64,000 nucleotides of DNA. It comes from Solirubrobacter deserti. Its GTDB lineage: Bacteria > Actinomycetota > Thermoleophilia > Solirubrobacterales > Solirubrobacteraceae. The translations under genes and the position numbers were made by a program. The first letter of the stretch is position 1; every line of letters begins with the position of its first letter. Positions 26,561-64,000 of the stretch are shown here, one piece after another. Below the pieces are notes generated by a model. The model had not been told where the DNA came from. It was given only the letters and a program-made list of their open reading frames with translations, and made no database searches. Where the stretch lies: the NCBI RefSeq assembly GCF_027587175.1, contig NZ_JAPCID010000021.1:1-64000 (forward strand), given 5' to 3'.

Positions 26561-27931
26561 ATGTCCGGGCTGCCGTTGCGCCGTCGGATGACGGTGGCCG
26601 TGGCGATCGCGGTGGCGGTGGCGGTCGCGCTGGCCGCGCTGGTGGCGTATCTGGCCGTGCGCGGCTCGATCCGCGGCGAGGTCGACCGGGCGCTCGAGGA
26701 GCAGCGGCTGATCCCGTTCCCGCAAGGGTTCGGCGAGGGTCGTGGCGGGCCCTTCGGCCCCGGCGGCCCCGGCGGTCGCTTCCGGCCGTTGGCGGCGCGC
26801 TTCGGCGGGCCGACGCCGTTCATCCAGCTGATCGACGCCGACGAGCTGGTGCGCCCGATCGGCACCGAGCTGGTCGAGATCCCGGTGCAGGACCGCGCGC
26901 GCGACGTGGCCGCGGGCGTCGCCGAGCCGTTCTTCGCCGACGCGGACGTCGCCGGCACGCACACGCGCGTGCTCACGGTCCCGGCCGGCGACGGGCTGGC
27001 CGTCCAGTTCGGGCGCTCGCTGGAGCCCGCCGACTCGGTGCTCGCGCGGCTGCGCCTGATCCTGGTCTTCGTGGTCCTGGGCGGGATCGCGCTCGCGGTG
27101 GCGCTGGGCCGGCTGGTCTCGCGCAACGTCGTCGCCCCGATCGTGCACGTAACCGACGCCGCCCGCCACATCGCGGCCACCGAGGACCTGGGGCGCCGGA
27201 TCGACGTCGAGACCCAGGACGAGGTCGGCGAGCTGGCCCAGCACTTCAACGCGATGCTCGCCACGCTCGAGGGCAGCGTCGCCGCCCAGCGCCAGCTCGT
27301 CGCCGACGCCTCGCACGAGCTGCGCACCCCCATCACCTCCCTGCGCACGAACATCGAGGTGCTGGCCGAGTCGGACTCCCTCCCGGCGGACGAGCGCGCC
27401 CGCCTGCTGGCCGACGTCGAGGAGCAGACCACCGAGCTCGGCATGCTCGTCGCCGACCTGATCGAGCTCGCCCGCGGCGACGAACCCACGCGTGAGCGCG
27501 AGGACGTGCGCCTGGACGAGCTCGTCCGCGACGCCGTCGTCCGCGCCCGCCGCCACGCCCCGGGCATCGAGTTCGACGCCACCGTCGAACCCGCCGTGCT
27601 CGACGGCACCCGCGAGCGCCTCGCTCGCGCCGTCAACAATCTGCTCGACAACGCCGCCAAGCACTCTCCACCGGGTGGCCTCGTCGAGGTCCACGCCGGC
27701 CCGGACGGCGTCCGCGTGCGCGACCACGGCACCGGCATCGACCCCGCCGACCTCCCGCACCTCTTCGACCGCTTCTACCGCGGCGCCTCCTCCCGCGGGC
27801 GCCCCGGCTCCGGCCTCGGCCTGGCGATCGTCCGCCAGGTCGCCGAGCAGCACGGCGGCAGTGTCCACGCCGCCAACGCCCCGGGTGGCGGCGCCGAGTT
27901 CACCCTCACCCTCCCGGCCGACCCAACCTAA
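26561..27931 (+). CDS. Membrane sensor histidine kinase (MprB-like)
   Basis: A 456-residue kinase (GTG 26558 is an alternative start). Helices at ~10-30 and ~165-187 flank an extracytoplasmic sensor containing a Gly/Pro-rich stretch. HAMP follows ([20 protein letters not shown]), then HisKA with the phosphorylated His in [16 protein letters not shown], and HATPase_c with N box [13 protein letters not shown]1 [11 protein letters not shown] box LFDRFYRG and G2 [11 protein letters not shown]. All catalytic boxes are intact. The stop codon (27929-27931) lies inside the left REP-like repeat, so insertion of that repeat may have set the C-terminus (ending LTLPADPT). Confidence 0.94.
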
Positions 27932-27964
27932 AGCAACATCAACGGGTCTGACCCCTTTAGGTTG
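27924..27964. repeat. REP-like palindromic element, left of RAYT gene
   Basis: Outer arms CAACCTAAAG (27924-27933) and CTTTAGGTTG (27955-27964) are perfect; an inner palindrome GGGTC-T-GACCC lies at 27944-27954, with ~10 unpaired bases on the left side. It is a degenerate version of the perfect element at 28541-28573. It covers the kinase stop codon. Confidence 0.8.
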
Positions 27965-28005
27965 AGGGCGGGGCGAGAACGAGCCGCCGACCGCCTACAG
28001 CGGGC

Positions 28006-28581
28006 ATGCCTCGTTCGTTGCGTCCCGAGTTGGCCGGAGGGATTCACCACGTGTACGCGCGCGGTGCGGCGAAACAACAGATCTTCCTAGACGACCTCGA
28101 TCGTCGCCGCTACCTGTCGCTCCTCGCTCGCGTCACGAACCGGATGGCGTGGCGTTGCTTGGCGTATTGCTTGATGGGCAACCACATGCATCTGATGATC
28201 GAGACTCCGCAACCGAACCTCGGTCGCGGTATGCAGCGCCTGCAGGGCACGTATGCGCAGGCGTTCAACCTCCGCCATGAGGCGGCCGGTCACGTCTTCG
28301 GCGCGCGTTACGGCTCGACAAGCGTGTTCACGGACCCACAACTGTGGATCACCGCCGCCTACATCGCTCGGAACCCGGTCGAGGCCGGGTTCTGCGCCGC
28401 ACCCGACGCGTGGCCCTGGAGCAGCTTCAACGCCATCGTCACGGCGGACTACCCGGCCTGGCTCGACGCTCCACGCCTGCTCTCGTACTCGCCCAGGCCG
28501 GCGGCGATCCGGTTCAGGTCTACCGCGAGTTCGTCGCTGCACAACCTAAAGGGGTCTGACCCCTTTAGGTTGTTGGGATGA
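28006..28581 (+). CDS. REP-associated tyrosine transposase (RAYT, Y1_Tnp)
   Basis: A 191-residue HUH single-strand transposase. The His pair is in CLMGNHMHLMIETP (H-M-H) near residue 62 and the nucleophile Tyr is in LQGTYAQAFN near 85; GHVFGARYGS and YIARNPVEAGF are further family blocks. RAYTs process REP hairpins, and matching palindromes flank this gene. The final ~13 residues (NLKGSDPFRLLG) are encoded by the right-hand palindrome itself. The stop overlaps the glycerate kinase start (ATGA). The catalytic residues look intact, so it could still be active. Confidence 0.93.
   Translation: MPRSLRPELAGGIHHVYARGAAKQQIFLDDLDRRRYLSLLARVTNRMAWRCLAYCLMGNHMHLMIETPQPNLGRGMQRLQGTYAQAFNLRHEAAGHVFGARYGSTSVFTDPQLWITAAYIARNPVEAGFCAAPDAWPWSSFNAIVTADYPAWLDAPRLLSYSPRPAAIRFRSTASSSLHNLKGSDPFRLLG
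28541..28573. repeat. Perfect REP-like palindrome, right of RAYT gene
   Basis: Sixteen-base perfect arms (28541-28556 and 28558-28573) around one base, core AAAGGGGTCTGACCCCTTT. It encodes the RAYT C-terminus and ends 4 nt before the glycerate kinase ATG, so the hairpin would cover that gene's ribosome-binding region. AAAGGGGTC(A/T)GACCCCTTT-type palindromes are known RAYT substrates in other bacteria. Confidence 0.9.
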
Positions 28582-63070: not shown

Positions 63071-64000
63071 ATGTCGACGAACCGTGCCACTTTGGAGCTC
63101 TTCGCTGCGCTCGACCGCGCCTCGCCCGAGCCGCTGCGCGCTCAGCTGGAGACCGCGATCCGCGCCGCGATCGCCGGCGGCGGTGCTCCGCCGGGCACGC
63201 GCCTGCCCGCCTCACGCGTGCTCGCCGAGGCGCTGCACGTGTCCCGGGGCGTCGTCAGCGAGGCCTACGCCCAGCTCGCCGCCGAGGGCTGGATCGAGGT
63301 CCGCCACGGCGCCGCGCCCGTCGTCCGAACCGAGCCGGCGAACATAAAGAGGGACAGTCCCTCTTTAGGAAACGACCCGGGTGGCGGGCGTCCGCCGGGG
63401 ACACCGACGGGTGTTTTCCTAAAGGGGGACAGTCCCTCTTTAGGAAACGTGGGTGCTCCGGCGGCCCGGGTGGATCTGCGTGCGACGGCGCCCGATCTGT
63501 CGGCGTTCCCACGGCGGGCGTGGGCGGCGGCGCTGCGGCGGGCGCTCGCGGACATGCCGGACGCGGCGCTCGACTACGGCGACCCGCGTGGGGACGACGA
63601 GCTGCGGGCCGAGTTGGCCGCGTACCTCGTGCGCGTGCGCGGCGCGGCGGCGAACGCTGAGGACCTCGTCATCACGTCGGGCTACACGCAGGGGTTGTGG
63701 CTGGCGTGCCGGGCGCTCGCGCATCGCGGCGCGACGCGGGTGGCGGTTGAGGACCCGTCGCTCGACGACGCCTGGGGGACGATCCGGTCGGCCGGGTTGG
63801 ACGTCGTCCCCGTGCCGGTCGACGAGCACGGGATCGACCCGAGCCGGCTCGACGCGGACGCCGTGCTCGTCACGCCCGCGCACCAGTTCCCGACGGGCGC
63901 GGTCCTCAGCCCCGAGCGCCGGCGGGCGCTGCTGGCGTGGGGCGGCATCGTGCTCGAGGACGACTACGACAGCGAGTATCGCTACGACCGCGCGCCCGTG
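63071..64000 (+). CDS. MocR/PdxR-type regulator (GntR winged helix + aminotransferase), truncated by window
   Basis: At least 310 residues from ATG 63071; the frame is open to the right edge. Residues ~1-85 are a GntR winged helix (PLRAQLETAIRAAIAGG, LPASRVLAEALHVSRGVVSE, AYAQLAAEGWIEV); ~125 onward is an aminotransferase-like domain (GDPRGDDELRAELAAYL, VITSGYTQGLWLACRAL, ILEDDYDSEYRYDRAP) whose PLP Lys should lie beyond the window. The linker (~90-125) is encoded by two REP-like palindromes at 63345-63447, each giving RDSPSLGN- or GDSPSLGN-like text and using TTA and ATA codons that are otherwise avoided. MocR proteins sense PLP or amines; the divergent SIS gene is the likely target. Confidence 0.88.
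   Translation, partial: MSTNRATLELFAALDRASPEPLRAQLETAIRAAIAGGGAPPGTRLPASRVLAEALHVSRGVVSEAYAQLAAEGWIEVRHGAAPVVRTEPANIKRDSPSLGNDPGGGRPPGTPTGVFLKGDSPSLGNVGAPAARVDLRATAPDLSAFPRRAWAAALRRALADMPDAALDYGDPRGDDELRAELAAYLVRVRGAAANAEDLVITSGYTQGLWLACRALAHRGATRVAVEDPSLDDAWGTIRSAGLDVVPVPVDEHGIDPSRLDADAVLVTPAHQFPTGAVLSPERRRALLAWGGIVLEDDYDSEYRYDRAPV
63345..63447. repeat. Pair of REP-like palindromes inside MocR gene
   Basis: Palindrome 1: 63345-63355 and 63357-63367, perfect 11-base arms. Palindrome 2: 63415-63430 and 63432-63447, 16-base arms with one mismatch. Between them is 47 nt of ordinary GC-rich sequence. The outer CCTAAAG/CTTTAGG and GTC-x-GAC-like cores resemble the RAYT-flanking repeats at 27924-27964 and 28541-28573, although the inner bases differ. 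Read in frame they encode the linker of the MocR protein. Confidence 0.85.

Follow-up and report, generated by a model that had tools for sequence, protein, structure and literature searches.

Why does a transcription factor of Solirubrobacter deserti encode the stretch between its two domains with a pair of DNA palindromes? The question is raised by the end of the window, by which we mean the whole stretch of 64,000 nucleotides analysed here, where a MocR-type regulator gene (MocR1) carries two hairpins. The original prediction, made from the letters of the window, had described them as RAYT-type repeats converted into a coding linker. The features of the gene are the following:

63071..64000, plus strand: MocR-type regulator gene MocR1, an open frame with Pfam matches to GntR and Aminotran_1_2, which continues past the window to contig position 64516
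63140..63316, plus strand: winged-helix (GntR) domain, residues 24-82 (Pfam)
63341..63448, plus strand: predicted disordered interdomain linker, codons 91-126, encoded by the palindromes (AlphaFold2 pLDDT)
63345..63367, plus strand: palindrome 1, TAAAGAGGGACAGTCCCTCTTTA, with the family A core at 63346-63366 and the peptide NIKRDSPSLGN; position common to two congeners
63368..63414, plus strand: spacer separating the two palindromes, self-complementary in part; seen in this species only and missing from the orthologues
63415..63447, plus strand: palindrome 2, TTTCCTAAAGGGGGACAGTCCCTCTTTAGGAAA, with the family A core at 63421-63441 and the peptide FLKGDSPSLGN; species-specific and missing from the orthologues
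63515..64000, plus strand: aminotransferase-like domain (Aminotran_1_2), residues 149-450, running past the window end (Pfam)

The two palindromes are near-perfect, lie 75 nt apart and both fall within 63345-63447; the second has a G variant in the 5′ arm of its family A core. The core pattern matches the window exactly twice, both times in MocR1, compared with 0 matches in 100 shuffles. Folding of the 126-nt region gave z = -6.3 as RNA and z = -7.2 as DNA relative to shuffled sequences, and the RNA fold of the insert region reaches -74 kcal/mol. Core matches, shuffles and folding thus confirm the hairpins that had been proposed. They are also in frame and introduce no stop, as the ORF of 481 codons is open from 63071 to contig position 64516 (seen on the contig, not in the window alone). 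PF00392 and PF00155 were both found above cut-off and the structure model agrees, which gives the MocR/GabR architecture, and orthologues are present in all six of the other congeneric assemblies.

The claim that the insert is rich in rare codons held as well: both TTA codons of MocR1 and its sole ATA, CTA and AGG codons are located inside the insert, and the 4,616 reference codons include 2 TTA and 0 ATA. The same applies to its position in the protein, since codons 91-126 lie between GntR and Aminotran_1_2 and are predicted to be disordered. In an AlphaFold2 model, for which an alignment of 37 sequences served as input, the only residues with pLDDT under 50 are 1-7 and 92-128, and the domains are mostly above 90. 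In this model, the insert is an almost exact match to the predicted disordered stretch joining the two folded domains. Linkers of actinobacterial MocR proteins are mostly coil and very variable in length (PMC5026710).

Family A palindromes and their RAYT genes

A genome-wide count, in which the fifth base of each arm was left free (N), revealed 52 exact copies of the family A core AAAGAGGGACWGTCCCTCTTT. The 22-nt arm pattern, searched genome-wide with up to 3 mismatches, has 72 matches compared with 0 for the reversed control. Sixteen doublets occur in the genome, with their members 49-123 nt apart. The assignment to a RAYT-associated repeat family is supported by a 186-aa Y1_Tnp gene (RAYT) on contig C30, which has identical 33-nt palindromes (TTTCCTAAAGAGGGACWGTCCCTCTTTAGGAAA) on both flanks and whose stop codon falls within the flanking palindrome. 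PF01797 is above cut-off in this gene. Its translation, read by eye, contains NHVHLL, which we take to be the HUH motif, and AYVARNPVSAGL with AAYVARNPV, presumably the tyrosine context, both being typical of RAYTs. Variants of the family A core also surround the family A RAYTs at a second locus (C86) and those of two congeners, G003 and G006.

Among the congeners, the copy number of family A tracks the presence of a family A RAYT. Species with such a gene have 52 (this species), 24 and 53 exact cores; G002 and G005, which have distant RAYTs alone, have 4 and 0, and G004 has neither a RAYT nor a family A core. In a pattern survey across 232 genomes of the order, family A was detected in this genus and in one genome with a single match, and the lineage restriction of the repeat was thereby upheld. 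Family A is not a GTAG REP, because none of the listed copies has a constant GTAG next to the stems. Judged by its sequence, we file it as a RAYT-associated palindrome nearer to the TIR-flanked TIRYT class than to the GTAG REPs. Cores resembling GGGGWSAS were recognised by eye in GGGGACAG/AGGGACAG and in GGGGTCAG.

The window also contains the second RAYT gene of the genome, together with its palindrome:

28006..28494, plus strand: RAYT gene of palindrome family B (GGGTCWGACCC), with a Y1_Tnp match
28541..28573, no strand given: family B palindrome ACAACCTAAAGGGGTCTGACCCCTTTAGGTTGT, downstream of the family B RAYT

This RAYT is 56% identical to the family A RAYT. Over 27926-28573 it is accompanied by a decayed palindrome upstream and the family B palindrome downstream. 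Its C terminus ends with LLSYSP, where relatives have LLSYFAQDGGD..., and this divergent end looks like a frameshift.

Some family A copies seem to be parts of larger units. The doublets at L012, L013, L016 and L025 have a common spacer motif around GCAGAGCCAAAA, and may therefore represent composite elements some 100 nt long; the motif is missing from the MocR1 doublet. Another composite is seen at L040, L042, L043 and L047, where a GCGACAnnTGTCGC-like hairpin directly adjoins a family A palindrome, and pieces like this hairpin accompany family B cores in G002.

The scan of coding context covered 39 family A loci with about 43 sites. Ten genes carry family A in frame: MocR1, its paralogue MocR2, two genes for Wzy_C ligases and one each for a kinase of the APH family (APH), an S9 peptidase, a CydDC-type double ABC protein, an amidase, a histidine kinase and a PAD-like protein. 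In the last of these, the palindrome lies near the N terminus and the in-frame status hinges on the start codon. With about ten such genes in one genome, the view of MocR1 as an exceptional case of repeat exaptation is not supported. The palindrome can be read through in two frames (LKRDSPSLG and PKEGQSLFRK), and the third contains a TAA. This TAA is the stop codon of several upstream genes, including the RAYT itself (L011, L023 and others). The amidase gene (L036 on C44, 2584-3725) has one palindrome in frame and a second 632 nt away at its upstream end. The spacings of intragenic doublets are 75, 75, 75, 78 and 99 nt, all five divisible by 3, compared with 4 of the 11 other doublets (Fisher p = 0.029, from a small sample and a test chosen after the data were seen).

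MocR2, located on C62, is 50% identical to MocR1 and has family A palindromes in its linker. Hairpin 1 of MocR1 and hairpin 2 of MocR2 share 95% identity over 43 nt. Gene conversion between the paralogues was considered and is not needed, as their spacers differ and the same asymmetric unit is also found at other loci. In other genomes, no RAYT-type palindrome was found in the MocR linkers of 80 loci, about half of which were parsed by script, and conservation of the linker palindromes across distant genera was rejected on this basis.

Orthologous sites in sister species

MocR1 of G006 and of G003 has a single perfect palindrome, which coincides with hairpin 1 in position and frame; where the two species differ in one arm, the other arm has changed to match (CGAACATAAAGAGGGACAGTCCCTCTTTATGTTCG and CGAATCTAAAGCGGGACAGTCCCGCTTTAGATTCG). 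The gene of G005 contains two decayed palindromes; those of G002 and G004 are intact and have none. An alignment of orthologues had been suggested to see whether the 103-nt insert is lineage-specific. The spacer and hairpin 2 belong to this species alone, and hairpin 1 is common to two congeners. A single insertion of 103 nt was rejected, since G003 and G006 have hairpin 1 alone.

The linker of MocR2 carries a family A doublet in this species, in contrast to the family B core GGGTCWGACCC in G002, G003, G005 and G006. The reading frame also varies between the species, and the peptides NLKRDSPSL, EHKGVRPLYVE and NLKGSDPF... result. With palindromes that differ in core and frame, the peptide itself is not conserved, and the filling of this linker by unrelated peptides from other palindromes speaks against the exaptation that had been proposed.

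The insert in the histidine kinase gene is missing in four congeners (G002, G003, G005 and G006), and no target-site duplication is readable at the empty site. At S9 and CydDC, G003 and G006 have exactly the cores of this species, with surrounding genes just 78-83% identical in DNA. Hairpin 1 of MocR1, the S9 palindrome and palindrome 2 of CydDC are perfect or near-perfect between species, within genes that are 78-85% identical. From these alignments, palindrome conservation at these sites exceeds the expectation under neutral decay, and the DNA is probably subject to some selection or actively maintained.

Family A sites were also mapped onto 2.4 Mb of G002 and onto orthologue loci. Eleven sites could be placed in G002 under strict filters and a twelfth (L026) under looser ones; L020, L039 and L041 come from G002 windows picked around known family B matches. 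At the other nine sites, chosen by gene or in contiguous stretches, G002 has a palindrome in seven cases: the core is of family D at APH, L017 and L032, of family B at MocR2 and of family C at L026, and variants of family A are found at S9 and CydDC. The MocR1 and histidine kinase sites are the two without a palindrome. Of 200 random control sites, 4 have a hairpin score of at least 9 (two distinct sequences); these are GC-rich and not of this type.

The palindrome at the APH site of G002 is AAACGTCCWGGACGTTT (family D), and the same palindrome flanks the RAYT of G002 itself; in G003, a decayed relative of it occupies this site. In the L041 doublet, the spacer is conserved between G002 and this species and both cores differ. 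S9 (L198) and CydDC (L083) of G002 carry the same variant GAAGAGGGACWGTCCCGCTTC in unrelated genes and in different reading frames. A match between core and resident RAYT was shown in G002 for family D only, because no B-type RAYT was found there. A sister species without a family A RAYT usually has a palindrome at the orthologous sites all the same, with the core of another family. This would mean either repeated replacement by new palindromes at the same sites or a rewriting of cores in place.

Origin of the MocR1 insert

The best explanation for the insert in MocR1, to which we assign a probability of roughly 0.85, is a RAYT-associated palindromic (REP-type) doublet that lies in frame in the interdomain linker and is tolerated there, because linkers accept extra disordered residues. 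The RAYT would move or copy the palindrome as single-stranded DNA, as in REP-RAYT systems, and the doublet would have landed in frame within the linker of MocR1. Insertions that break the frame would be removed by purifying selection, and linkers and loops would serve as safe havens. What persists would be the DNA of the palindrome and not the encoded peptide. Against this explanation stand the absence of any observed transposition or established target-site duplication and the conservation of some palindromes beyond the expectation under neutral decay. A putative effect of the hairpin on the MocR1 mRNA may come in addition. In an adaptive exaptation, the insert would have been selected because it lengthens or alters the linker and with it the allostery of the regulator, or because the mRNA hairpin tunes translation or stability. 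The very stable RNA fold (-74 kcal/mol, z -6.3) would fit such a role, as would the RAYT palindromes in the same linker region of two MocR paralogues across most of the genus and the compensated changes by which the MocR1 hairpin was kept between G003 and G006. However, the linkers of MocR2 hold different peptides from different frames, MocR1 is intact in G002 and G004 without any palindrome, and the same element is also present in unrelated enzymes, so that we regard selection for such a function as improbable. Far less probable still is a broken gene, with a frame error masking the break, or a misassembly of the repeats. MocR1 extends past the window, within which its intactness cannot be proved, but on the contig the ORF is open over its full length, a second, independent assembly of this species agrees exactly (L052) and the orthologues have one palindrome in the same frame. 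A pseudogene or frame error in MocR1 was rejected on the full ORF and the identical assembly.

An active turnover of the palindromes is compatible with a tolerated insertion and would add to it. Cores at fixed sites would be rewritten or replaced to match another RAYT family, the site and the outer arms would stay, and the MocR insert would be a snapshot of this process. G002 has B, C or D cores where this genome has A (APH, MocR2, the intergenic sites L017, L032 and L026, and also L020, L039 and L041). The retained spacer of L041, the D core next to the RAYT of G002 and the variant GAAGAGGGACWGTCCCGCTTC in two unrelated genes and frames also point in this direction. Yet a site that is permissive or REP-targeted could have received insertions repeatedly and independently, with a similar outcome at most loci, and L020, L039 and L041 stem from windows selected for family B. 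Moreover, G002 has no palindrome in MocR1 and the histidine kinase gene, and no B-type RAYT was found in it. We consider this turnover possible, at clearly less than even odds. A more specific version is slightly more doubtful: each palindrome would stay at its chromosomal site, coding sites included, and its core would be converted in place to the one that another RAYT recognises, with outer arms and frame kept and with transposase and cores changing in concert.

A mobile repeat here directly supplies protein sequence: RAYT palindromes are part of the coding sequence of ten or more genes in a single bacterium, and MocR linkers contain them repeatedly. The sites shared by sister species and filled with different cores represent a natural experiment on how REP sequences change and spread.

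Comparison with known systems

Intragenic REPs and in-frame palindromic elements of Rickettsia are already known, and the turnover at orthologous sites is the unexpected part. In the sections available to us, Di Nocera et al. (2013, PMC3733652) describe REPs inside genes of several species, dimers included, and suggest their tolerance in linkers or loops. As in our case, palindromes of tyrosine transposases are located in frame in genes, singly or as dimers. TIRYT transposases are also described there, with terminal repeats on their flanks that contain a GGGGWSAS motif, and by eye this motif fits GGGGACAG and GGGGTCAG of this genome. In contrast to the REPs described there, neither a GTAG nor a CGTC tag was seen in this genome, and MocR linkers are not named among the intragenic sites in these sections. 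Moreover, coding sites that are occupied by one palindrome family in this genome can carry another in a sister species, for which the one comparable case in these sections is the occurrence of different REPs at about the same recB site in two Xanthomonas species. The RPEs of Rickettsia, cited in the same source as in-frame precedent, resemble family A by description: they too are palindromes in frame in many unrelated protein genes, whereas family A is linked with a RAYT gene and has intergenic copies as well.

REPINs are almost wholly extragenic; of the commonest 16-mers in SBW25, with 1,067 occurrences, 14 overlap genes (Bertels and Rainey 2011, PMC3116915). Family A resembles them in its palindrome doublets with a spacer, its single-copy cognate transposase and a presence that follows the RAYT, but several of the doublets look like direct and not inverted repeats of an asymmetric unit. 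In the REP orthoswitch, a new REP class spreads and the older copies remain in place and degenerate (Nunvar et al. 2013, PMC3686654). Orthologous RAYTs with different REP classes in related strains are found there as here; in our case, however, palindromes of other families occupy the orthologous sites themselves. That different families recurrently occupy the same sites in sister species, within genes and between them, goes beyond the main-text accounts in all three studies (PMC3733652, PMC3116915 and PMC3686654).
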